Assembly: GCA_944388995.1 (NCBI GenBank)
Contig: CALXKN010000016.1
Location: 1 to 42,802 of the forward strand
Length of the DNA stretch: 42,802 nt
Source of the DNA: an uncultured Spirochaetota bacterium
Lineage (GTDB): Bacteria > Spirochaetota > Spirochaetia > JAFGXN01
Reading direction: 5' to 3'
The position numbers and the translations under genes were made by a program. This document shows positions 1,930-42,583 of the stretch, piece after piece. The notes under the pieces are model-generated. The model did no database searches. It saw only the letters and a list, made by a program, of their open reading frames with translations, and was not told the DNA's origin. Position 1 is the first letter of the stretch. Each line of letters opens with the position of its first letter.

Positions 1930-3669
1930 TTACGGCATTGCCTTGATTTTGTCTGCATACCCGCTCCATTCTCCGGCAGCTTTGTAAGCGTCAACTGAAT
2001 CGGCAGGAACGAGGATTTCCTCGATGGTTTCGGGGAATGTCAAATCGGTTACACCGGACGGCGGATCGACGCTCTTTACCGTCACCGACTTCAATCGCGT
2101 ACAGTCGGAAAAAACGGCTCCATTGACAGCACTAATCGTCGACGGCAAATCGATTGTCTGCAGCGCCGCGCAAAATCCGAACGCTGTATCGTTGATCGTC
2201 GTCACTCCTTCCGAAAGAACCACCGTTTCCAGCGACGTACAAGCAAAAAAGAGAGACATATCCAAAATGCTCATCGACGACGGGATTGTTACGGACGTCA
2301 GCGATGTACAGGCAAGGAAACTCTCTTTTCCGGAAGTCAGAACTCCATTCGGAATATTGATTGTTTCCAACGCCAGGCAGAGCGAAAATGCTCCGTTATC
2401 AAATCCTGTCACCGAAGTGGGAAGTTCGATGGATTTCAAATTTTTGCAATTATAAAAAGCATATGCGGGAATTTTCGTAATTTGGCCGGGAATCTCAATT
2501 TCCGTCAGCGATGTACATCCGTAAAATGCATATTCACCAAGTTCAGCAACGCTTTCGGGAAAAGAAGCAGAAATTAAGCGGGTATTGTTGAAAAAAGCAC
2601 GTTGAGGAACCTCCGTTAGAGGCTGATCAAACACCCACATTCCTTCACCGGAGGCTGCATCAAAAAACGATCGGTCAGCATTATAATTCGTCCATCCCAA
2701 CGAAATCTCTTCCGATGCGCGGTAAATCACCCGCGAAACAACCCACTCGGCGGTCAAAGTCAGCGGACTCTCAACCGGAGTTTCGAAATTCCACCGTTCA
2801 CCGTTATTCATCCAGGCGTAAAAAACTTGACCTTCTTGTTCGGGTTTGGGCTCTGTCGGCGGTTTCGGAGCCTTTTCGCCTTTCAGAATTTCGACTGAAC
2901 GGCTCTCGGATCCGACCAAAAAGGTGACTGTCACCGTTTCTGCCCAAACCGCGTAGAGATCAACGTCGCCGGTGACTGTCCATTCGCTTTTATCCGGAAA
3001 TTCTGCCGTTTCCGCTTCCGGCTGCTGCGACCAACCGAGAAAGCGATAACCGTCACGGACAAACGGATTCGCGTCCAAAATGACAACCGAATTCAGCGGC
3101 GCCGATTGAATTACTGTTATATCGTTTTCCGGCAACGAAGCGTGAAAAACAATACTGCATTCGTCGGGCGCAGCTTCCGTCCAAACAGCATAAAGATCGA
3201 CATCGCTTGTCTCCATGGTAAAAACCGCGCGATCCGCCCAACGAACATCGGTGGAACCGGGAGAGTCGCTCCAACCGAGAAAGCGATAGCCTTCACGAAC
3301 AAACGGATTAGGAATGAGCCTCTCTTCTCCATGTTCGGGAAACTCCTGCCGAAAAACCCGATCATCGCCTTCAAACGAAGAATGAAAAATAACAAAACAG
3401 GTATTTTGCTTCCATTGTGCGTAAAAATCGCGGTTTTGTGTCATCGGAAGAGAAAAATCGACTTTTTCTCCGCCGATAGGCTGAGTAAACCATCCTTGAA
3501 AAACAAACCCGTCACGCTTCGGATCGGTCGGTGTTAAAACAGTTCCGGCATCAACCGTTACAACAGCTGAAAATCCGCTCCCATCCTGAAAGAAAAACCG
3601 TATGCTCACTGTTTCCGTTTGGCAGGCAAACATAAACATCGTCATCAAAGACAAAAGAATCCGTTTCAT
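1930..3669 (-). CDS. BspA-like surface lipoprotein with four InlB-type repeats and leucine-rich repeats
   Basis: The 579-residue protein has a lipoprotein signal with lipobox Cys16 (MFMFAC). Four InlB B/Flg_new-type repeats follow at about residues 20-310, each ending in a GW...YAxW-like pattern (GWFTQ, GWSDS, GWSQQ, AWMNN). About eight BspA-type LRR_5 units follow (AFYGCTSLTEIEIP and similar). Such proteins usually act in surface adhesion; the ligand is unknown. ATG 3669 is chosen over an upstream extension because it gives the signal peptide and has a GGAGGGAG site. Its ATG overlaps the previous gene's stop as TGATG, so the two are probably translationally coupled. It is the last gene of the lolA-rodZ-rimO-uvrD operon. 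A paralogue lies at 41096-42583. Confidence 0.85.
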   Translation of the reverse strand: MKRILLSLMTMFMFACQTETVSIRFFFQDGSGFSAVVTVDAGTVLTPTDPKRDGFVFQGWFTQPIGGEKVDFSLPMTQNRDFYAQWKQNTCFVIFHSSFEGDDRVFRQEFPEHGEERLIPNPFVREGYRFLGWSDSPGSTDVRWADRAVFTMETSDVDLYAVWTEAAPDECSIVFHASLPENDITVIQSAPLNSVVILDANPFVRDGYRFLGWSQQPEAETAEFPDKSEWTVTGDVDLYAVWAETVTVTFLVGSESRSVEILKGEKAPKPPTEPKPEQEGQVFYAWMNNGERWNFETPVESPLTLTAEWVVSRVIYRASEEISLGWTNYNADRSFFDAASGEGMWVFDQPLTEVPQRAFFNNTRLISASFPESVAELGEYAFYGCTSLTEIEIPGQITKIPAYAFYNCKNLKSIELPTSVTGFDNGAFSLCLALETINIPNGVLTSGKESFLACTSLTSVTIPSSMSILDMSLFFACTSLETVVLSEGVTTINDTAFGFCAALQTIDLPSTISAVNGAVFSDCTRLKSVTVKSVDPPSGVTDLTFPETIEEILVPADSVDAYKAAGEWSGYADKIKAMP

Positions 3670-4442
3670 CAATATTCTCCCTCCGAAAGCGTTAAAACTT
3701 CGGTAATTTTTCCCCAATCGCCTTTCGTTGCTGTCAATGGAAGAACGGCCGCCTCGGCCGCAGTCGGCGGCAGCAAAACACCTCTGTTTAACGCCTCCGT
3801 TCTCATTTTGTCATAATCGCTTCCGCTGTACAAAAGGTAAAATCCATTGCGTTTCCAGGCAGGCGCGGCGATTTTTGGTGCTTCGTCTGCGATTTTTTCG
3901 CTTAAAGCAATCCAATCATAGACGGCACGGGTCAGAACGGCCGTTTCAACCGGAGAGAGTGTTTCTCCTGCGGAAAGAGGCGTCCGCGAACAAAGGGCAA
4001 CCGCTCGAGAAAATCCGCCGGCAGGCAGAATGACGAAGAGCGTCTGCGCCTTCGAAGAAACCGGAAGCGTCGGCCGCCACCGCTCAAAACTTCCCGATTC
4101 GCCTCGAACCGGATCGCAAAGAGCCGTTTTTTTGTCAAAGAGGGCGTCCGCCGCCTGCATTGCCGCCGATTCGCCGGAAAAAACGGCAGAATACGGAAAC
4201 GCCGGGAAAAGCGTCCGCAGTGCTTTTTGAAGGCGGCCGCCGTAAACGGAGGGATAATCGCAAAACACTCCCTGCTCCGCCGCGTTCTTCAGCGTCAGAA
4301 CAAGTTTACCGCTTTTGTGTCCGGAAAACGCACGGCCGCCGCCGCGGTACAAATCGAGCAAAATCCGTCCGTCGTAAGTGTACAATTTAAACTCCCGCGC
4401 GCGTTTAACGGCGGGACAGAATTCTTCACCAATCATACTCAT
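3669..4442 (-). CDS. Degenerate class III aminotransferase-like protein, probably non-catalytic
   Basis: The roughly 257-residue product resembles the N-terminal half of class III PLP aminotransferases: an LLDLYRGGGRAFSGH segment (compare the family's G-x-G-x-x-x-GH region), then YGGRLQKAL and SAVFSGESAAMQAADALF, where the family binds PLP phosphate. It is far shorter than the usual 400-450 residues. I see neither the D-x-x-x-x-G loop nor the PLP lysine, so catalysis is unlikely. The C-terminal part (LYSGSDYDKMRTEALNRGV) resembles the small domain. The start is uncertain: ATG 4442, ATG 4436 or TTG 4457, all overlapping the uvrD end. It is sandwiched between uvrD and the BspA-like gene, overlapping both. 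The function is unknown. Confidence 0.6.
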   Translation of the reverse strand: MSMIGEEFCPAVKRAREFKLYTYDGRILLDLYRGGGRAFSGHKSGKLVLTLKNAAEQGVFCDYPSVYGGRLQKALRTLFPAFPYSAVFSGESAAMQAADALFDKKTALCDPVRGESGSFERWRPTLPVSSKAQTLFVILPAGGFSRAVALCSRTPLSAGETLSPVETAVLTRAVYDWIALSEKIADEAPKIAAPAWKRNGFYLLYSGSDYDKMRTEALNRGVLLPPTAAEAAVLPLTATKGDWGKITEVLTLSEGEY

Positions 4443-21872: not shown

Positions 21873-23771
21873 ATGGCGATTTTTACCGTAAAAATGCGCG
21901 CATCGCAACAAGGACGCCACACTTCCGGCGCAGAGAAAACCGTTGACGAATCCCGACTGACGAAGACGGTGTCCGCTCTGATTCGAAGAGCAAAAGAACA
22001 CGAACTCGGGCAGCCCGATTTCATAAATCTAAAAATAGAACAACAAAATCCTTCACAAATCGTTTTTTTGCCGGCATTGCCGGTAACCGACCGGAGAGGC
22101 AATTCGATTGAAGAAACATTCCGCATTATGGAAGAAGAACTGGAAAAACTCGGTGTTCCGCAGCCGAAACGGCAAATTGAACGGCTGAAATCCTTGCCGC
22201 CGATGCGCGGCGCCGCGGTTTTCGACATTGCCTGCGGAGAGAGGCTGGATGTCCCGTTTGACCGTGGAATTCGCGTTACGTATATGGATGAAGAAAACGC
22301 CTTTTCCGACGGACTGATGCGGAAAAATCCGTTCCGTGAAGCCCTGGTTCTGTCGACCAAAACAGCCGCTGCCGAGGGAATGGTCGCGGAACTTTGCATT
22401 TCCGATGATCCGAATTATCTGACCGGATATATTGCCTCCGCCCAAAACGGATACATCCGATTGTCTCCAATGAAACAAAAAGGTGACTCCCGCGGCGGCA
22501 GAATTTTTCTGTTCGATTCGCGCAAAGGCCGGTTTGAAGACGCTGTTCGGTTTTTACAGGAGCAGCCGGTTCTTGTCACCGGTATGCCGGAACGCCTGTT
22601 TCCGACCCAAGACGACTGCGCAGACGTCATCCGCACAAATTTGGAAAGTCAAAAAGCCAACGGACTGCATCGCCGCATCACCGTCATCGATTCACCGCAA
22701 AAGAAGAAAATCAGAATCGGAAAGAAAAAACTGCTGCTTTTTTCTTCCAACAACTACTTGGATTGGGCAATGAATTCGACGATGAGATTGAAAACAGCCG
22801 CCGCCGTTTTGAAGTGGGGCTGCGGCAGCGGAGGCAGTCGGCTGACAACGGGAACGCAGCCGCCGCACGCGCGGTTGGAGGCGGCTTTAAGTCGATTTTT
22901 TGAAACGGACGACGCTCTGTTTTTTTCCACAGGATATGCCGCCAATGTCGGAATCTTGTCGGCACTCGGAAAAACCGTTGATGTGATTTTCAGCGATGAA
23001 TCAAACCACGCCAGCATCATCGACGGCTGCCGTTTGGCAAAAGCAGACACCGTCGTTTATCGGCACAATGATCCGGTTGATTTGGAGAGAAAAATCCGCG
23101 GCTGTTCTTTCCGTTCGGGGTTAATTGTCAGCGACGGCGTTTTCAGTATGGGAGGAGATATTGTCCGACTGCCGGAAATTCTGACGCTGGGGAAGAAGTA
23201 CGGGCTGCTGACGATGATCGACGAAGCCCATTCGTTCGGCGTTTTGGGAAAAACCGGACGCGGAACCGCCGAGCATTTCGGGCTGAAGGAAAACGCTGAT
23301 TTAATTATGGGAACGCTCAGCAAAGCAGCGGGCGCCGAAGGCGGTTTCGTCTGCGGCAGCGCATTTTTAATCGACTTTCTGCGAAATAACGCGCGCAGTT
23401 TTATTTTTTCCACTGCGCCGACACCGGCTGATACGGCGGCAGCCGCCGCCGCACTGAAACGCATTCAGCGGCATCCGGAACGAATCCGCCGCCTTCAACG
23501 CAATATGAAACTTTTTGAACAAGCGCTTACCGATTTCGGATTCGATATCAGCGTCAATTCCGCCGTTGTTCCGATTCCTGTCGGAGACGAAGAGACGGCG
23601 CTTCGGGCCTCAAACCGTCTTCGGCAGCTCGGATTCTGGATTCCTGCCATCCGTTATCCGTCGGTTCCACGGGGAAAGGCGATTTTGCGCGCAGCCTTGA
23701 CGGCGTCGCATACGGAAAAAGAACTGCGGGCCGCAGCGAAAGCGCTGGCTTCAGTTCTTATCCGAGAATAA
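21873..23771 (+). CDS. bioWF: BioW-BioF fusion: pimeloyl-CoA synthetase and 8-amino-7-oxononanoate synthase
   Basis: Joins the first two steps of the BioW route of biotin synthesis: pimelate to pimeloyl-CoA, then condensation with alanine. Residues 1-240 match BioW, with VKMRASQQGRHTSGAEKTV, KEHELGQPDFINLKIEQ, the RGAAVFD segment and the TGYIAS region near 190. Residues 250-632 match BioF, an alpha-oxoamine synthase, with FSSNNYLDWA, GSGGSRLTTGT, DESNHASIIDG, IDEAHSFGVLG and PLP-lysine in GTLSKAAGAEGG. ATG 21873 is chosen because AGGAGA precedes it and BioW starts there. No other bio gene is in the window. The 3' end overlaps the convergent ABC ATPase gene by 21 bases. Confidence 0.92.
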   Translation: MAIFTVKMRASQQGRHTSGAEKTVDESRLTKTVSALIRRAKEHELGQPDFINLKIEQQNPSQIVFLPALPVTDRRGNSIEETFRIMEEELEKLGVPQPKRQIERLKSLPPMRGAAVFDIACGERLDVPFDRGIRVTYMDEENAFSDGLMRKNPFREALVLSTKTAAAEGMVAELCISDDPNYLTGYIASAQNGYIRLSPMKQKGDSRGGRIFLFDSRKGRFEDAVRFLQEQPVLVTGMPERLFPTQDDCADVIRTNLESQKANGLHRRITVIDSPQKKKIRIGKKKLLLFSSNNYLDWAMNSTMRLKTAAAVLKWGCGSGGSRLTTGTQPPHARLEAALSRFFETDDALFFSTGYAANVGILSALGKTVDVIFSDESNHASIIDGCRLAKADTVVYRHNDPVDLERKIRGCSFRSGLIVSDGVFSMGGDIVRLPEILTLGKKYGLLTMIDEAHSFGVLGKTGRGTAEHFGLKENADLIMGTLSKAAGAEGGFVCGSAFLIDFLRNNARSFIFSTAPTPADTAAAAAALKRIQRHPERIRRLQRNMKLFEQALTDFGFDISVNSAVVPIPVGDEETALRASNRLRQLGFWIPAIRYPSVPRGKAILRAALTASHTEKELRAAAKALASVLIRE

Positions 23772-24476
23772 AGCGGAACGGAAGGCGGGCGTTTTTTCTT
23801 CAATTTCTCCGCCTTCTCCGCCGCAAAAAATCCAACGGGGATTTTCTTCCGCTGCGTAAATCAAATCGTGAGAAGAAACAATGACAATTTTGCCCCGTTG
23901 TCGGGCACAGTCGGCAAGCAGTCGGAAAAACGACCGTTTTGATTCATAATCGAGAAAAGATGTCGGTTCATCAAGCAGCAACAGCGGCGTTTCCTGAGCC
24001 AACGCGCGGGCGGTCATTACCTTTTGCTTTTCTCCGTCGCTGAGAGAATCAAAAACGCGGTCCTTCAGTGTTAACGCATCTGCCGCTTTCAACGCGGTAT
24101 TTACCGTTTCGACATCTGCCGCCGACAACCGTCCGCAGCGGCCGGTATACGGAGCGCGTCCGAGAGCGGCTGTCTCAAACGCGGTGAACAATCCCATCGA
24201 CGGAAATCCGGTTAAGACGACCGCCGACACAAACGCCGACCGAGCCGGCGAAAAACAGCGGCGATCTTCCCCGTTCCACAGAACTGTTCCGGAAAGCGGG
24301 AGCTGTAGCGCTGCCAAAGTTCTCAACACGGTCGATTTCCCGGCTCCATTGCGACCGTAAAGAACACAAAAATCGCCGCTTTCAAAAATCAGGCGCTCCG
24401 CCGTTAAAACCGATTTATTCGCCCGCCGTTGCCGATAACCAAAAACGCAGTCGACCGCCTCCAATCGATTAATCAT
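23751..24476 (-). CDS. btuD: ABC transporter ATPase, corrinoid uptake (BtuD-like)
   Basis: The 241-residue ATPase powers import through the adjacent permease. It has Walker A (YGRNGAGKST), the Q-loop region, signature LSDGEKQKV, Walker B (LLLLDEPTS) and H-loop SSHD. The order and length fit the FecE/BtuD family. ATG 24476 is chosen: GGGAGG lies upstream and the start overlaps the permease stop by 8 bases. It is the last gene of the cobalamin-riboswitch operon, which makes corrinoid the likely cargo. The family alone could not tell this from iron-siderophore or heme systems. Confidence 0.88.
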   Translation of the reverse strand: MINRLEAVDCVFGYRQRRANKSVLTAERLIFESGDFCVLYGRNGAGKSTVLRTLAALQLPLSGTVLWNGEDRRCFSPARSAFVSAVVLTGFPSMGLFTAFETAALGRAPYTGRCGRLSAADVETVNTALKAADALTLKDRVFDSLSDGEKQKVMTARALAQETPLLLLDEPTSFLDYESKRSFFRLLADCARQRGKIVIVSSHDLIYAAEENPRWIFCGGEGGEIEEKTPAFRSALFSDKN

Positions 24477-25458
24477 AACGACCTCCCGAACGGTCGCCCA
24501 AAAGAGCCACAAAGATAAACGGCAGCCCGAAGAGCGAAAGCACAGGATTTAAAGGCAGCGCTGAGGAAAAAAGCGCGGGAATTTTTGCTGTCAAATCAGC
24601 GGTTAAGGTCAGCAGTGCGCCGGCAACGGCAGCAGTCGGAATCAATTTACGGTAATCATCGATATGAAAGAGATCGATAATCAGCCGCGGCGCCGCGATG
24701 CCGACAAATGCAATCGGACCGCAAAATGCAGTCACAGCCGCCGCCGGCAGCGAAGAAACCGCTACCAATCCGAAACGCAGCCGCTTCACATTAACGCCGC
24801 TCGACGCCGCATAGTCGTCTGAGAGTCGGTAAAGATTCAAATCTTTTGCGATACGAATAGAGTAAATCAAAGTGACGGCACAGACAACCATTAAGAACAG
24901 CGATTGACTCAAATTCGCAGCAGAGAACGATGCAAAACTCCACGAAAAATAATTCTCCCACTCCTGCGGAGAAGAAAAAAATATCATCAGAGAAATCAGT
25001 GCATTGACGCCGTATCCGATCATCAATCCGGCAACGAGCAGCGCCGAATTTGATTTAAGGCGAACCGACAACGCTGAAACTGCCGCCGTCACCGTCAGCG
25101 CGCCGACAAACGCCGCAGCTGTTGTTCCGAACATCAGCACGCCGCCGCCTAAAACGACGGCGCCGTAACGAAAAATCAATGTGACTGCCGCCGCGCCAAA
25201 CGCCGCACCGGAGTGAATTCCCAATACAAACGGATCCGCCATCGGATTACGGAAAAACGACTGTAAAAGAACGCCGGCGATCGCCATTGAAGCTCCGGCG
25301 GCAACCGCCGTCAGCAAACGAGGCAAACGGATTTCCGTTAAAAGCCGACCAAAAAGTTCTTTATCGCCGCCAAACCCGACGGATGATGTTCCTATCCAAA
25401 GATGAAGAGCGGCCGCCATCAAAAGCAGCGGGAGTAAAACCGCAAGCGTTTTTTTCAT
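24469..25458 (-). CDS. btuC: ABC transporter permease, corrinoid uptake (BtuC-like)
   Basis: The 329-residue FecCD-family permease has about ten hydrophobic segments. The family signatures are IRLPRLLTAVAAGASMAIAG, LQSFFRNPMADPFVLGIHSG and, near the C-terminus, CGPIAFVGIAAPRLI. It overlaps the binding-protein gene as ATGA and the ATPase gene by 8 bases, so the three are coupled. Assignment to B12 rests on the operon riboswitch. Confidence 0.9.
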   Translation of the reverse strand: MKKTLAVLLPLLLMAAALHLWIGTSSVGFGGDKELFGRLLTEIRLPRLLTAVAAGASMAIAGVLLQSFFRNPMADPFVLGIHSGAAFGAAAVTLIFRYGAVVLGGGVLMFGTTAAAFVGALTVTAAVSALSVRLKSNSALLVAGLMIGYGVNALISLMIFFSSPQEWENYFSWSFASFSAANLSQSLFLMVVCAVTLIYSIRIAKDLNLYRLSDDYAASSGVNVKRLRFGLVAVSSLPAAAVTAFCGPIAFVGIAAPRLIIDLFHIDDYRKLIPTAAVAGALLTLTADLTAKIPALFSSALPLNPVLSLFGLPFIFVALLGDRSGGRYD

Positions 25459-26561
25459 TTAAGAATCCGATAAAAATATGTCGGTTCGCCGCCGCCGGTC
25501 ATAGCCGCCCAATCTTCCAAAAGCCAATCGGGGCGCAGCGGAGAATAATCGTAAAATCCATTGAAACCGCGTTCATCGGTCAGCCGATCGTTTACAGCAA
25601 CACGCGCCGTTTTCAGCGGAGGAAACCCATCCAGCCGCGAATCTCCCAATGCCGAAAGCGCGGCGTTTTCGAATTCCGCACGGCTCTGAAAACTTCCGGA
25701 GTGAAGAACCCACAGCGATGCGGAAGAAAATCGGGCAAAAACGCCCTCCAAATCGAATAAAACCGTCTCGGCAGCTGTTTCCGGAGCCAAATAAAAACAT
25801 CCGCCTTCCCTTGCTGCAGTCGCCGAAAAACTGCTGCCCGACGGCATTCGCCACTGACCGTTTGCGGGAAGATTGAACATCACTTCGGGACGACGTGAAC
25901 GCAGCGAAATTTTTGCTTTAATATCTTTGTATCGGGATTCGATTTCGCCAAACAAAGCAGCCGCTTCGATGCTTTTTCCGAAAAAAGCAGCCTCCAACTC
26001 CGCCCATTGCGCGCGTCCGAGCGGCGTTGTTTCCCTCCAATCCTCAATCGGGACGGGAACCGCTCCGGCAGAGATGATTTTTTCCGTTTCTTCCCAATCA
26101 CCGCCCGCAGGAGAGAAAAAAACCGCTTCCGGTTTCAATGCTGTCAGTTTTTCGCGATCGAGTTTCATTCCTTCCGCCAATAGTGGAATCTCTTTTCGAG
26201 AAATTCGTTCTCGGAAACTTTTAATTGTCGTATAATCACCGTCAACACCGACAACGGCCTCTTCCGCTCCGACGGCTTCCATCAACGCCAAAACAGTCGT
26301 CGTGCAGACTGCCGTTCGACGCAGCGGAACCGCAACACGAAATTCCCGATCACCCAAAACGGCGCTTCCCTCTTCCCGAGGACAAAACCGATAGCGCCAA
26401 ATCTCTCCGCCCGAAAGAATTTCGGCTAAAACAACTTCGCCGCGTTCGTTTTTTTGCAGCGAAAACAATTCGGCGTGTCCGTAACCGTCGATTTTGGAAA
26501 CCTTTCCGCAGGCGGCGAACAGTAAAATCGTTAAAAAAAGCGAAAACCATCGGTTTTTCAC
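25455..26561 (-). CDS. btuF: ABC transporter substrate-binding lipoprotein (BtuF-like)
   Basis: The 368-residue lipoprotein has lipobox LFAAC (Cys18) and a Peripla_BP_2 fold: RTAVCTTTVLALMEAVGAEEAVVGV, the EIPLLAEGMKLDREKLTALKPE segment and a C-terminal RPDWLLEDWAAM helix typical of class III binding proteins. It would capture corrinoid in the periplasm and deliver it to BtuCD. The start is GTG 26561, overlapping the tonB stop as GTGA with GGAG before it. The ligand is inferred from the riboswitch upstream of the operon. Confidence 0.87.
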   Translation of the reverse strand: MKNRWFSLFLTILLFAACGKVSKIDGYGHAELFSLQKNERGEVVLAEILSGGEIWRYRFCPREEGSAVLGDREFRVAVPLRRTAVCTTTVLALMEAVGAEEAVVGVDGDYTTIKSFRERISRKEIPLLAEGMKLDREKLTALKPEAVFFSPAGGDWEETEKIISAGAVPVPIEDWRETTPLGRAQWAELEAAFFGKSIEAAALFGEIESRYKDIKAKISLRSRRPEVMFNLPANGQWRMPSGSSFSATAAREGGCFYLAPETAAETVLFDLEGVFARFSSASLWVLHSGSFQSRAEFENAALSALGDSRLDGFPPLKTARVAVNDRLTDERGFNGFYDYSPLRPDWLLEDWAAMTGGGEPTYFYRILK

Positions 26562-27184
26562 AAAATTTCTCCTGTTTTAAATACGAATTTCTTTCGAGTG
26601 ACAAAGCCGCCTTCTCTCGGAGGGAAATGCCACCGCTCGACCACCGGCAGTACGGCGCGGCGGAACCATTCATGCGACGATTGTAAAATTTCTGCCGAAA
26701 CGACACAGCCGTCGCTTCCAACCGTCAGCTCTACCGTTACCGTCCCGCCGAGCCCCCGCCGCCGAGCAGCCGCCGGATAAGCCGGCATCGGCAGTTCAAC
26801 GCCTGCCGACGCCTTGACAAAATCGACATTCGGAAGAGCGGAGGGTTCAGCATCTGAATTTTTTTCCGCTGTCGAAGATTCCGCAGGAACAAACTGTTCG
26901 GCTGCTGTTTTTTCCGATTCGGTCGGACGAACGGCTTTTGTATCCGTTTCCGGCAGCCGATCTGCCGTTTCAGTGGGCAGAACGGATTGAACGGACGAAT
27001 CGACATCGGCAGCAAGATTCGGCAATCGAATTTCCGCCGCCAGTCGAATCTCCGCCGTTTCCGGATCAGGCAGGCAGAGCGCCGCCGACAAAGCAGCGCC
27101 GTAAATCGATAAAGCGACGGCAATCGAAAAAATCAGACGGAGCCGATCACTCACCGCCGTTGAGAACGGCTGCGCACGCCGCAT
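26558..27184 (-). CDS. tonB: TonB-like energy transducer
   Basis: The roughly 208-residue protein has an N-terminal TM helix (LRLIFSIAVALSIYGAALSA), a long Glu/Thr/Pro-rich periplasmic spacer and a TonB C-terminal domain (AYPAAARRRGLGGTVTVELTV, ending ERWHFPPREGGFVTRKKFVF). TonB transmits proton-motive force to outer-membrane receptors, so a B12 receptor should exist. No BtuB-like barrel or ExbBD is encoded in the window. The start is uncertain (27220, 27217, 27184 or GTG 27154); all overlap the upstream lipoprotein gene. The spacer has fewer prolines than enterobacterial TonB. Confidence 0.85.
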   Translation of the reverse strand: MRRAQPFSTAVSDRLRLIFSIAVALSIYGAALSAALCLPDPETAEIRLAAEIRLPNLAADVDSSVQSVLPTETADRLPETDTKAVRPTESEKTAAEQFVPAESSTAEKNSDAEPSALPNVDFVKASAGVELPMPAYPAAARRRGLGGTVTVELTVGSDGCVVSAEILQSSHEWFRRAVLPVVERWHFPPREGGFVTRKKFVFKTGEIL

Positions 27185-28232
27185 CAAATCCGGCAGAACC
27201 GACTGTTTTAAACGCATCATAAATCACATTTCCGAACGAATCGAACTGCGCTTCGTATCCGTCGGTTCCTTCCGCACACCCGGGAATATCGATTAAACGC
27301 AAATAACGCACCGCGTTTAAATCAAGTCGACCGTCCTTAACCGCTTCCCGATCCGCCAACTCGTCAAGATCAAAGAGAGTTCCGTATCCGAGAGGTTTTG
27401 CACCCGCCAAACCAAAAACCGAGTCGGCTTCAATCTGTCCGCCGGAAGAGACTGTTTCCGTTCTTTTTGAAACCGAAGAAAACCGCTCAAAATGGCTGCC
27501 GTCACTGCTCACTTCGACAAAAGCCAGTTCCGCAAACACAGAGTTTTCGCCGGCGCTCATTCCGTTTTCAAAGACGGCAAAATCGGGTCCGATACCGTTG
27601 CCGGCGGGCGTTTCCCACTTCAGCGTCAGCGAACCGCCGTTTCCGAGGGAAACGACATCGTAAACCGGATCGGAAACCGCTTCCGACTTGTGCGCAAGCC
27701 AACTGCCGAGCGCCAGCTGCGGATCCATAAACGATGTTAAATCCTTACCTTCAACGTATTTAATGACTTCCGACGCCCAACCGACCGCGGCGGCTGTTTC
27801 TGCATGTACAGTCAGCTGCGACACGCTGCCGAAACTTTCGACCGCAATAAAACGGTACATGGAAACCGCTTCTTCACCGGGACGCCGCACAAAGACCGTG
27901 CACGGACCGGTTTTGTCAACCGAAAACGAATCGGCCGCCCGCCAACGGTTTTCGGCGTCCGCAACCGAAGCGTCGGTCGTTCCCGTGACAACGGCGGCTT
28001 CGGCGGATTCAGACAACCGCACCGTTTTTCCGAGCGGAAGCAGTCGTCCCGTGTAAAGGCAGCGCACCGGAGATGAAAAATCATCCGCGGAGGATGGTTC
28101 CATATTCATGTACGCCTCTTCATATTCCTGCTCCAGATAAACGGCGGGCGCAGGCGGTTGGGGTTCGGGATCGGAAGGACAACCGACAGCCGCCGCTGCC
28201 GCCATACCGACGATGAAAATTTCAAACCGCAT
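27147..28232 (-). CDS. Uncharacterised lipoprotein of the corrinoid operon (DFAVFENG-type)
   Basis: The 361-residue protein has a signal peptide and lipobox-like AVGCP (Cys18), an acidic Tyr/Glu-rich stretch and then a beta-rich body. The body carries DFAVFENGMSAGENSVFAELAFVEVSSDG, quoted here in pieces: DFAVFENG, ELAFVEVSSDG and YLRLIDIPGCAEG. That wording is typical of discoidin/jelly-roll-like surface proteins annotated only as cell surface protein. A role in capturing corrinoid at the surface is inferred from the operon. The start overlaps the previous stop as TGATG (start ATG 28232), so it is translationally coupled. Confidence 0.75.
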   Translation of the reverse strand: MRFEIFIVGMAAAAAVGCPSDPEPQPPAPAVYLEQEYEEAYMNMEPSSADDFSSPVRCLYTGRLLPLGKTVRLSESAEAAVVTGTTDASVADAENRWRAADSFSVDKTGPCTVFVRRPGEEAVSMYRFIAVESFGSVSQLTVHAETAAAVGWASEVIKYVEGKDLTSFMDPQLALGSWLAHKSEAVSDPVYDVVSLGNGGSLTLKWETPAGNGIGPDFAVFENGMSAGENSVFAELAFVEVSSDGSHFERFSSVSKRTETVSSGGQIEADSVFGLAGAKPLGYGTLFDLDELADREAVKDGRLDLNAVRYLRLIDIPGCAEGTDGYEAQFDSFGNVIYDAFKTVGSAGFDAACAAVLNGGE

Positions 28233-28792
28233 CACTGTTTTTCATATCCGACGGAAGCGTAATCAAACCAACCGTTTGCGCAAGTGATTTTCTCTTCGGC
28301 TTCGACCGCATCGGAGAAAAGCGAATTCACGTAAACACTTTCGTCAGTTGATCCGTTTTTGAATCCTTGTGTAAAAATCCACAAATTGTCTTCCCCACGG
28401 GCAAACCGAAAAACATTGTACTCTCCGACTTTACCCGTTCCGTCGCCGTCGCTTTTTGTCAACCGAATGACAAGATACCCGAAAAACGGAAATGCTGCGT
28501 TTTCGGCAATCGAATTTGCCGGACGTTGTTCGCCGCCGTTAAAACTGCCGAACTGTGCTTTTTCAATTTCTGCCTCATAAACGACAGAAAGCGTTTCATT
28601 GGAATTGCCGCTTTCGTAGCGGACGGAAGATTCCGTGATCGTGATTTGCTCCTGCCATGGACCGAAATCAGAAGACGCATCCAAAACATAAACGCCGATT
28701 AACTCTTTTCCCGTTTCTCCGGAAAGCGCTTCGCACGCCGTCAAAATGACTACCGCAAAGACGACGCATGACGAAAAGAAAATTCTTTTCAT
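28232..28792 (-). CDS. Uncharacterised lipoprotein, first gene of the cobalamin-riboswitch operon
   Basis: The 186-residue protein has a signal peptide and lipobox VILTAC (Cys20). The mature part is beta-rich (GVYVLDASSDFGPWQEQITI, FPFFGYLVIRLTKSDGDGTG, NVFRFARGEDNLWIFTQGF). I do not recognise a family. As the gene immediately after the riboswitch it should be the most B12-responsive of the set, which suggests a direct part in corrinoid capture or delivery. ATG 28792 has AAGGAG five bases upstream. Confidence 0.75.
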   Translation of the reverse strand: MKRIFFSSCVVFAVVILTACEALSGETGKELIGVYVLDASSDFGPWQEQITITESSVRYESGNSNETLSVVYEAEIEKAQFGSFNGGEQRPANSIAENAAFPFFGYLVIRLTKSDGDGTGKVGEYNVFRFARGEDNLWIFTQGFKNGSTDESVYVNSLFSDAVEAEEKITCANGWFDYASVGYEKQ

Positions 28793-28834
28793 AAAAACTC
28801 CTTTTCGGGCAAAAGAAAAAAATGCGAACAGCGA

Positions 28835-29002
28835 TTTTTAACTCAAACCCGAAGTTAAAAATAAAGATGCCGTACCAAAGTTTCCCGGCTTACGAGCTTT
28901 TCTGCGAAGCCTTCCCATCCGAAGACAGTGGCAATATTTCGCTTCTTCTCGATCACGGTTGCGGGTCAGCGCGGGATTTTCACCCGACTTCCATTGAAGT
29001 AC
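28835..29002 (-). promoter_or_regulatory. Cobalamin riboswitch with L13-type regulatory hairpin
   Basis: The minus strand carries the class hallmarks in order: a GGTGAAAATCCC box, GCGCTGACCCGCAACCGT, GCCACTG, GGGAAGGC and the B12-box-like AAGCCGGGAAAC. The aptamer spans about 28868-29002. A 9-bp hairpin (arms 28853-28861 / 28835-28843) follows; its loop UCGGGUUUG contains CGGGU, complementary to ACCCG in L5, as in the L5-L13 kissing loop of known cobalamin riboswitches. CCCGAA directly before AAGGAG (28798-28809) can pair with the same UUCGGG, so control of ribosome binding is likely. High B12 should turn the operon off. Confidence 0.93.
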
Positions 29003-29008
29003 TCCGGA

Positions 29009-29037
29009 ATTATAGCTGTTTTCTTCTTGTTTGACAA
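29009..29037 (-). promoter_or_regulatory. Promoter of the corrinoid-uptake operon
   Basis: On the minus strand, -35 TTGTCA (29032-29037), a 17-bp spacer and a perfect -10 TATAAT (29009-29014). The predicted start near 29002 is where the riboswitch aptamer begins. Confidence 0.78.
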
Positions 29038-29080
29038 GCGAATTTTCTTACGGAAAACCCTTCCTTTTCCGTCCGATTCA

Positions 29081-29089
29081 TGACATAAT
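29081..29089 (+). promoter_or_regulatory. Extended -10 promoter of the TPR gene (leaderless geometry)
   Basis: TG-A-CATAAT (29081-29089) is an extended -10 element ending 5 nt before ATG 29095. The -35 region (TTCCTT) is poor, as is common with extended -10 promoters. No ribosome-binding site is present. Confidence 0.45.
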
Positions 29090-29094
29090 GAAGC

Positions 29095-29565
29095 ATGAAC
29101 AATTCCCGGATTTTTCAGAAAAATCATTCGAAAGCCTGTCAGCTGATGGGAAAGAAAAAGTATGTAAAAGCCATCCCGTATCTTCTGACAGCGCTTGAAG
29201 AAATTCCGAATCATCCCGTTGTACTTTCCAACTTGGCAGTCTGTTATTACGAAAGCGGCGATCGGGACGCCGCCGCACGGACGGTCGCAAACGCACGCGA
29301 ACGGGGTGTTCAATCGGCTGAGCTGGATAATGTCAGCGGTCTGCTTGAACTGCGGCGGCAACAGTACACAAAGGCGCTCGAATATTTTTATGAAGCCTCA
29401 AAAAAAGATCCGCGCGTTTCCGTTTATCACAACCACATGGGAGTCGCGCTCTTCAATTTAAAAAAATATCCGCACGCTTACAAAGAATTCAAAACTGCCG
29501 TTAATTTAGATCCGCACAATAAAGAGGCTGCGCGTAATTTACGCGACTGCGAATCGTTTTTATAA
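29095..29565 (+). CDS. Tetratricopeptide-repeat protein
   Basis: The 156-residue protein is made of about four TPR helices pairs: KKYVKAIPYLLTALEEIPNH, VLSNLAVCYYESGDRDAAAR, LLELRRQQYTKALEYFYEAS and GVALFNLKKYPHAYKEFKTA. It has no signal peptide or TM segment, so it is probably a cytoplasmic protein-protein adaptor. Partners are unknown. It lies divergently from the corrinoid operon and ends 4 bases from the convergent outer-membrane-like gene. Confidence 0.88.
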   Translation: MNNSRIFQKNHSKACQLMGKKKYVKAIPYLLTALEEIPNHPVVLSNLAVCYYESGDRDAAARTVANARERGVQSAELDNVSGLLELRRQQYTKALEYFYEASKKDPRVSVYHNHMGVALFNLKKYPHAYKEFKTAVNLDPHNKEAARNLRDCESFL

Positions 29566-41095: not shown

Positions 41096-42583
41096 TTAAA
41101 TTATGGGGTTTGAGGCTTTGTGCTCCGTACACTCTGAGGCGTCGACAGAGCATCCCGACTTATCACCCAGCAGTCCGTTGATTCTGGTAAGATCTTTTCC
41201 ATCAGGCAAATTCCGTTCGTAACAAACATAGATACTCGTCAGATCATTTGTCATTGCAAATGCGTCAGACCCGATTTCTGTCAAACTGTTCGGAAGGTGA
41301 ATTGTTTTTAAGCAGGAAACTTTGAAAGCGGCTTCTTCAATCGCCGTCAGCGCCGTACAGTCGGAAAGATCAATAATGAAAGTTTTGCTATTCTCCAGCC
41401 CTACCGCCTCAAAAGCCGATTTTCTGATTGTTTTCAATGATGTGCAGCCGTCAAAATTGATTGACGTCAGCTCCGTGGCCGCAAATGCACCGCTTCCGAC
41501 AGACGTCAGGTTGGCGCAGCCGCCGAAATCAACGGCCGTCAGATTCGAACAGTTGGAGAATGCGTTATCACCGACCGTCTCCAGCGCCGCACAGTCGGAG
41601 AAATCGACGGACGGTAAAAGAGAGCTTGCAAAGGCGTCATGATCGACGGTTTTCAACCCCGTACAGCCGCTCAAATTCACTATCCGTAAGGCGGTTGTTT
41701 CGTAAAACGCCCCGGTGCCGATGGTCTCCAGCGACGCGCAGCCGGAAAAGTCGGCCGACTCAAGCGCCGGACAAAAACCGAAGGCGTATGCGCCGACGGT
41801 GGTCAAATTGACCGCCTCCGAAAAATCCACCCGTTTCAAAGTTTGATTGGCGCTTCCGCTGTCCTGCGAATCGCCTGCCAGACCGTTCGATGTTCCGAAC
41901 GCGTAATCCGACACTTCCGTCACCGGAATTTCCTTTGCGTTTGAGCGGATAAATCCGGCAAAAACGCTGATCGTTTCGACGCCTTCCTTCACCCCGGAAA
42001 GGACGGCGTGATCTTCATAGATAGTATAAACCGCACCGTCTTCCGCCTCAAAATCCGTTCCCGGCTTGACCTCGGCGGCGGTCCATTCACCGGTCAGCCA
42101 CTGCGCATACAACGCCACATTTCCGGTCGAGCCCTTCGGAATCGTTGTGACCCTTTTTGTGCGTTGCGCATCCGAATACCAACCGCCGAAAGTAAAGCCC
42201 TTGCGTTCCAGCGGCGTCAGGATGATTTCCTCCGATTCCACGTTGTATCCGGCAGGATTGGGCGTCACCCCTTCGGGAACCGTTCCGCCGTCGTAAATAT
42301 AGGTGATCAGATAATCGCTTTCCGGCCGCCATTGGGCTTTGTAGACGGTTCCGACGGCAGGAAAGTAAACGGGAACTTCGGGATTCCAGCCGTTGAAAGC
42401 ATACCCTTCCCGAACCGGTTCAAACGGAACGGAAAAAAGCTCGTCAGGAAAACCGAGTCGCAAGACCTTGCTCTCCCCGTCATTGAAAACCCCTCCGTTT
42501 GCGTCAAACGTCAGCGTTACCGATTCTTTGCACGCCGTCAAAGCGGCGGCAAAAACGATCAACAAAATACAGATTTTTTTCAT
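41096..42583 (-). CDS. BspA-like surface lipoprotein with InlB-type and leucine-rich repeats
   Basis: The 495-residue protein has lipobox AALTAC (Cys18) and two or three InlB B/Flg_new-type repeats (about 20-165; FDANGGVFNDGES, EGYAFNGWNPEV, KGFTFGGWYSDAQ). At least eight BspA-type LRR_5 units follow from about 215 (YAFGFCPALESADFSGC, AFSNCSNLTAVDFGGC). The repeats read ...DFSGCxxLxxIGxxAF..., more regular than in the paralogue at 1930-3669. It is likely a surface adhesin. AAGGAG precedes ATG 42583. No clear promoter is seen in the 67 bases before the upstream terminator hairpin; a weak TATAGA lies near 42599. Confidence 0.87.
   Translation of the reverse strand: MKKICILLIVFAAALTACKESVTLTFDANGGVFNDGESKVLRLGFPDELFSVPFEPVREGYAFNGWNPEVPVYFPAVGTVYKAQWRPESDYLITYIYDGGTVPEGVTPNPAGYNVESEEIILTPLERKGFTFGGWYSDAQRTKRVTTIPKGSTGNVALYAQWLTGEWTAAEVKPGTDFEAEDGAVYTIYEDHAVLSGVKEGVETISVFAGFIRSNAKEIPVTEVSDYAFGTSNGLAGDSQDSGSANQTLKRVDFSEAVNLTTVGAYAFGFCPALESADFSGCASLETIGTGAFYETTALRIVNLSGCTGLKTVDHDAFASSLLPSVDFSDCAALETVGDNAFSNCSNLTAVDFGGCANLTSVGSGAFAATELTSINFDGCTSLKTIRKSAFEAVGLENSKTFIIDLSDCTALTAIEEAAFKVSCLKTIHLPNSLTEIGSDAFAMTNDLTSIYVCYERNLPDGKDLTRINGLLGDKSGCSVDASECTEHKASNPII

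Follow-up and report, generated by a model that had tools for sequence, protein, structure and literature searches.

An operon behind a cobalamin riboswitch in an uncultured spirochaete begins with two lipoproteins, one of which carries a divergent BtuH-type domain

Organization of the operon and its leader

The window analysed here, 42,802 nucleotides in length, is one whole contig of a spirochaete genome (1.93 Mb, 98% complete). It contains six tightly packed minus-strand genes with overlapping ends, located downstream of a cobalamin riboswitch. The first gene encodes P1 (28232..28792), a lipoprotein of 186 aa with a predicted beta-barrel fold whose family is absent from Pfam and NCBIfam, and the second encodes P2 (27147..28235), a lipoprotein of 362 aa. 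Signal peptides of the lipobox type were recognized by inspection on both P1 (LTAC) and P2 (AVGC), and the start of P2, which is either GTG at 28235 or ATG at 28232, is coupled to the stop of P1 as TGATG. These genes are followed by TonB (26558..27220; PF03544, E 3.6e-14), of which the true start is probably further in, near 27154-27184, and by genes for a BtuF-like lipoprotein of the periplasmic binding protein type (25455..26561; PF01497, E 3.9e-10), a BtuC-like permease (24469..25458; FecCD, E 2.2e-63) and a BtuD-like ATPase (23751..24512; ABC_tran, E 1.7e-21). For the latter two, the best NCBIfam matches are BtuC and a corrinoid ABC ATPase, respectively, both below cut-off. The gene after BtuD is convergent. 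A sequence-only reading of this DNA had already proposed that TonB and BtuFCD follow the two lipoproteins, which the domain matches bear out; the interval it gave for the locus (28232-29037) runs only from the promoter to the end of P1, with P2 lying beyond it at 28235..27147.

Elsewhere in the window, the 5' end of a 16S rRNA gene (RF00177) was found at the contig edge (1-77, minus strand), so that the contig terminates in a ribosomal operon. Two further lipoproteins (1930-3717 and 41096-42583, both minus strand) have, as judged by eye, the look of surface proteins with InlB-type and leucine-rich repeats.

The aptamer of the riboswitch (28992..28880, minus strand) scores 69 bits with RF00174 (E 4.2e-15), for which the gathering score is 31.5, and is the single match across the 1.93 Mb genome. 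The riboswitch claim of the earlier reading is thus upheld by the covariance search that it had itself suggested. The aptamer covers model positions 47-167 and is shorter than RF00174, but otherwise ordinary, with both the aptamer and the L5-L13 complementarity in common. It is kept in sister genomes, and a sister genome carries P2 with 97% identity. The L13-type hairpin of the expression platform (28861..28835, minus strand) has a stem of 9-11 bp and the loop CGGGTTT, of which CGGGT is complementary to ACCCG of L5, as had been noticed before. A predicted sigma-70-type promoter, TTGTCA-17-TATAAT, with 11/12 consensus bases (29009..29037, minus strand), is the sole promoter-like site in 23300-29100, and a Shine-Dalgarno sequence of P1, AAAGGAG, can be read at 28798..28804 (minus strand). 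Folding of the leader RNA revealed no excess stability (z 0.16), and no single mode of Shine-Dalgarno control emerged from constrained folding. The operon is predicted to be repressed by cobalamin.

A divergent BtuH-type domain in P2

P2 is composed of a disordered linker, a poorly predicted beta region and a C-terminal domain of approximately residues 141-362, over which the AlphaFold model is confident. Taken alone, the P2 sequence has no match in Pfam, and a phmmer search against the PDB yields no BtuH structure and no credible match. When a profile of 32 P2 relatives was compared with all PDB chains, the sole match at E <= 10 was 8blw_B (E 0.0016). This is BtuG1 (BT_1490) of B. theta, which consists of a propeller and a C-terminal BtuH domain (PMC8941943), and the match spans residues 373-477, where the BtuH domain starts. 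The same chain is the only match at E <= 0.001 in a Foldseek search with the P2 model (6.2e-4, probability 1.00), in which the global TM is low (0.32) because model residues 1-140 are unreliable. Profile-profile comparison of P2 with spirochaete BtuH gave a probability of 85% (E 5.7e-6), as against 1% for the control comparison with P1. Furthermore, an intermediate sequence (L137) matches 8blw_B at both domain ends (phmmer, 6.9e-10) and 7biz (3.3e-4), as well as the P2 profile (1e-14) and P2 of the sister genus (BLASTP, 3e-13). P2 and BtuH have the motif GG-x(n)-DF-x(3)-(E/G)N and a C-terminal strand region in common. The homology can be seen only by way of a profile or an intermediate, and is strong only over some 60-100 residues with a weaker C-terminal match, the global HMM alignment of the two being informative only at its two ends. 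The C-terminal domain of P2 is a divergent, shortened BtuH-type domain.

The corrin contacts of BtuH2 include His476, Tyr510 and Trp511, and Asn399 is a contact to the B12 phosphate (PMC8941943). By motif alignment, the position of Asn399 is taken by the invariant N224 of the P2 family and that of Phe401 by M226; Asn399 was counted as chain residue 299 on the 7biz alignment, and the numbering offset of 100 was verified on the remaining named contacts. The set of BtuH2 contact residues (Gln333, Asn399, Phe401, His476, Tyr510, Trp511, Trp577, Leu578) was not found as such in P2, and the segment that holds His476, Tyr510 and Trp511 has no counterpart in the alignment. Since this segment is missing, we assign P2 to the BtuH superfamily and do not call it a BtuH, and binding of B12 is predicted.

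Like BtuH and BtuH2 of Bacteroides thetaiotaomicron (7BIZ; 8BLW), P2 is a lipoprotein with an N-terminal spacer and a C-terminal globular domain that is encoded in a B12-riboswitch operon. Its domain, however, is shorter and lacks the central Trp/Tyr-rich segment, there is no direct pairwise match, and PKD repeats were not detected in the Pfam search. BtuJ/DUF4465 proteins (PF14717) are likewise secreted or lipidated and encoded in B12-riboswitch operons, but assignment of P2 to this group is ruled out by the lack of a PF14717 match in P2 and its 31 relatives. A BtuG-type propeller can be dismissed as well: the Pfam search detected no PF16819 or YncE-like domain in P2 or in P1, neither of which is a propeller.

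Distribution of the P2 family

A scan of GTDB genomes gave at least 512 relatives of P2, and the 80 best, which were retained, come from Planctomycetes, Verrucomicrobia, Bacteroidota, Proteobacteria and other groups. Among 31 of these that were searched as whole genomes, RF00174 is present in 28, and in 26 of the 31 an aptamer is located within the P2 locus; it lies upstream of P2 in the same orientation, anywhere from overlapping to 4.7 kb away. For the latter count contigs were matched by coordinates and seven loci were re-checked directly, and the match in one locus (L059) is just under the gathering score. Aptamers were counted by Rfam searches; a regular-expression scan missed known copies. 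With zero to six aptamers per genome of 2-9 Mb, the expected number of coincidences is, by our own arithmetic, well under one. Aptamers also occur at 11 of 15 further P2 loci. P2 adjoins BtuB and BtuG-type DUF5074 genes at about 20 loci each, and BtuF, BtuC and BtuD are frequent neighbours too; in one case (L087) the order is DUF4465, P2, BtuB and a propeller of the DUF5074 cluster. Pilin-like/DUF1559 genes with N-terminal methylation motifs (clusters c3 and c10) flank P2-type genes in many B12 loci of Verrucomicrobia and Planctomycetes (L016, L019, L034, L035, L048, L065 and others).

Within the Spirochaetota, the wider P2 family occurs in 51 of 393 genomes, and a B12-clan aptamer was found in 11 of 20 short loci, ten of these being upstream on the same strand. 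LIC_13355-like lipoproteins (L134-L151) belong to the P2 superfamily and are often encoded behind B12 riboswitches, some of them beside BtuB.

The lipoprotein family at the head of the operon

P1 yields a confident beta-barrel model (pLDDT 83.9). The best Foldseek matches are calycin-type barrels (CRABP, streptavidin, YxeF), but with E values of 0.13 or worse these are non-significant, and neither a Pfam search with 11 members of the family nor a profile search of the PDB gave a significant match. Judged by the searches of Pfam, NCBIfam and the PDB, P1 is a member of an undescribed family. The description of both lipoproteins as unrecognised, given on first reading, thus holds for P1, which has no significant match, and not for P2, which is recognizable as BtuH-type through its family profile. 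Similarly, the structure comparison that had been recommended gives a match for P2 (8blw_B), and no significant fold match for P1.

Relatives of P1 were detected in 16 of 395 Spirochaetia genomes, approximately 10 of them being strong and five of the weak ones doubtful (G310, G048, G340, G075, G128); none was found among 37 genomes from outside the spirochaetes in which P2 relatives occur. At every strong locus with a usable flank (L095, L114, L115, L116, L117, L118), an RF00174 aptamer is located directly upstream of P1. In L114-L118, P1 is followed by a true BtuH lipoprotein, BtuB, a propeller lipoprotein and TonB, in this order. The BtuH protein of L114 matches 7biz_A at 6.2e-28, and those of the five loci align with each other. 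A gene of the P2 type follows P1 in L095 and likewise in L007, which is from the sister genus. The fact that the slot after P1 is filled by either P2 or BtuH supports the functional equivalence of these two proteins. P1 probably helps the cell to acquire B12, alongside P2. A likeness to the accessory surface proteins of other B12 systems, which the sequence-only reading had suggested for both, is now visible in the BtuH-type domain of P2 and in the position of P1 before true BtuH, BtuB and the propeller. That reading had named a consistent occurrence of homologues away from B12 riboswitches as an argument against its own view; homologues of P1 and P2 were instead found at B12 riboswitches.

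Two irregularities may be mentioned. A P1 relative behind a B12 riboswitch (L120:8144-8604, plus strand; G048) has its signal peptide and body in different frames, due to a frameshift or an assembly error. Two loci carry an extra gene between BtuH and BtuB (L117:8549-9313 and L118:9443-10372, both plus strand) whose product by eye resembles a degenerate binding protein of the BtuF type; Pfam gave no match for the copy in L117.

Corrinoid metabolism and the remainder of the uptake chain

The genome encodes a protein of the MetH type that has domains for B12 binding and for activation. This MetH-like protein of 784 aa (contig 11, L121:616-2970, minus strand) shows pterin, B12 and activation domains; a match to the homocysteine-methyltransferase domain is absent, and this domain may be encoded elsewhere. 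The CbiC step is common to both de novo corrin pathways, and no match to CbiC was found in the genome by a search that recovered 7 of 14 controls. The sole TonB-dependent receptor plug in the genome belongs to a protein of 628 aa (contig 6, L006:8306-10192, minus strand), which among solved structures is nearest to those of BtuB from E. coli. The presence of MetH, the lack of a CbiC match and the single BtuB-like receptor together make it probable that the cell relies on corrinoid from outside.

There is no riboswitch at the locus of the BtuB-like receptor. Whereas BtuB follows P2 in the sister genus, the BtuB-like gene is located outside the riboswitch operon here, and the parts of the uptake chain that were found are all under the switch, save the outer-membrane receptor. 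The propeller lipoprotein of the sister genus, which has the part of BtuG there, has no match in this genome, which makes P1 and P2 the candidate surface proteins.

Proposed function and alternative explanations

We consider it likely that this is a B12-repressed operon for corrinoid uptake, in which P2 serves in BtuH-type capture or hand-over and P1 is an accessory lipoprotein of the same complex. When cobalamin is scarce, the riboswitch would permit synthesis of P1, P2, TonB and BtuFCD. P2 would be anchored in the outer membrane, where its shortened BtuH-type domain could capture corrinoid or aid its hand-over to the BtuB-like receptor, while P1 may be a dedicated accessory lipoprotein in the same capture complex that perhaps also collects corrinoid. 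TonB would energise the receptor, and BtuFCD would move the corrinoid across the inner membrane for use by MetH. In Bacteroides, BtuG forms the lid of BtuB (PMC10404256), and BtuH and BtuJ are extra binders of B12 (PMC8941943, PMC12751083, PMC13398666).

The most serious alternative is that only BtuF and BtuB bind corrinoid, and that P1 and P2 are co-regulated, non-binding scaffold proteins or lipoproteins for vesicle formation or biogenesis that aid BtuB. A precedent may exist in B. theta, where BtuL and BtuK2 are encoded in B12 operons and did not bind cobalamin, even though BtuK2 resembles a B12 binder (PMC12751083). The absence from P2 of the segment with three of the BtuH2 corrin contacts and the lack of a recognised ligand-binding family for P1 would fit this explanation as well. 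On the other hand, no other candidate for a surface B12 binder was found in the genome, in which the propeller is unmatched and P2 is present as a single copy, and the phosphate-contact motif around Asn399 of BtuH2 aligns with the invariant Asn of the P2 family. We regard a non-binding role of both proteins as unlikely.

It is far less probable still that P2 is an adhesin or another host-interaction lipoprotein that is merely co-regulated with B12 uptake. LIC_13355 of Leptospira, a member of the same superfamily by profile, is described as an adhesin and not as a B12 protein; its family (NF033170) is the best NCBIfam match of P2 and matches 25 of 32 relatives, and binding of laminin and plasminogen has been reported for it (PMC11891782). 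However, that binding was reported with refolded insoluble protein (PMC11891782), and the P2 score of 28.8 bits is far under the curated cut-off of 120. Moreover, the wider family is found at B12 operons in Planctomycetes, Verrucomicrobia and Bacteroidota, and the LIC_13355-like relatives in Spirochaetota also occur at B12 riboswitches (11 of 20 wider-family loci), sometimes beside BtuB.

That the operon carries another ligand, such as an iron-siderophore, haem or cobalt, with the riboswitch merely tying it to B12 status, is likewise highly improbable: BtuF, BtuC and BtuD are of the generic FecCD type and below the NCBIfam cut-offs for B12 forms, but their best NCBIfam names are BtuC and corrinoid ATPase, the riboswitch and the BtuH-type domain point to B12, the only TonB-dependent receptor is nearest to BtuB among solved structures, MetH occurs without a CbiC match, and sister operons hold true BtuH and BtuB.

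Returning to corrinoid capture by P1 and P2, a bolder form of the proposal can be put forward tentatively, as a possibility that we would not yet favour: P1 may found a spirochaete-specific family of corrinoid-binding surface proteins unrelated to BtuG, BtuH and BtuJ, with P2 representing a widespread, unannotated minimal B12-binding domain of the BtuH type that occurs in many phyla and includes the LIC_13355 group of Leptospira.

Significance

Surface capture by BtuB, BtuG and BtuH is a known kind of system, and our search of the literature gave no description of the spirochaete form, of the shortened BtuH-type domain or of the P1 family, which are undescribed in the literature searched. Capture of B12 with the help of lipoproteins is known from gut Bacteroides and, more recently, from DUF4465 proteins in other phyla, and the same logic would apply in spirochaetes. 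The P2 family, for which there is no Pfam model, is represented in GTDB genomes by at least 512 stretches and also occurs in Leptospira-like bacteria. Together with the wholly undescribed P1 family, it offers two testable candidate families of B12-binding proteins, and the LIC_13355 'adhesin' group is worth re-examining as possible B12-uptake proteins.
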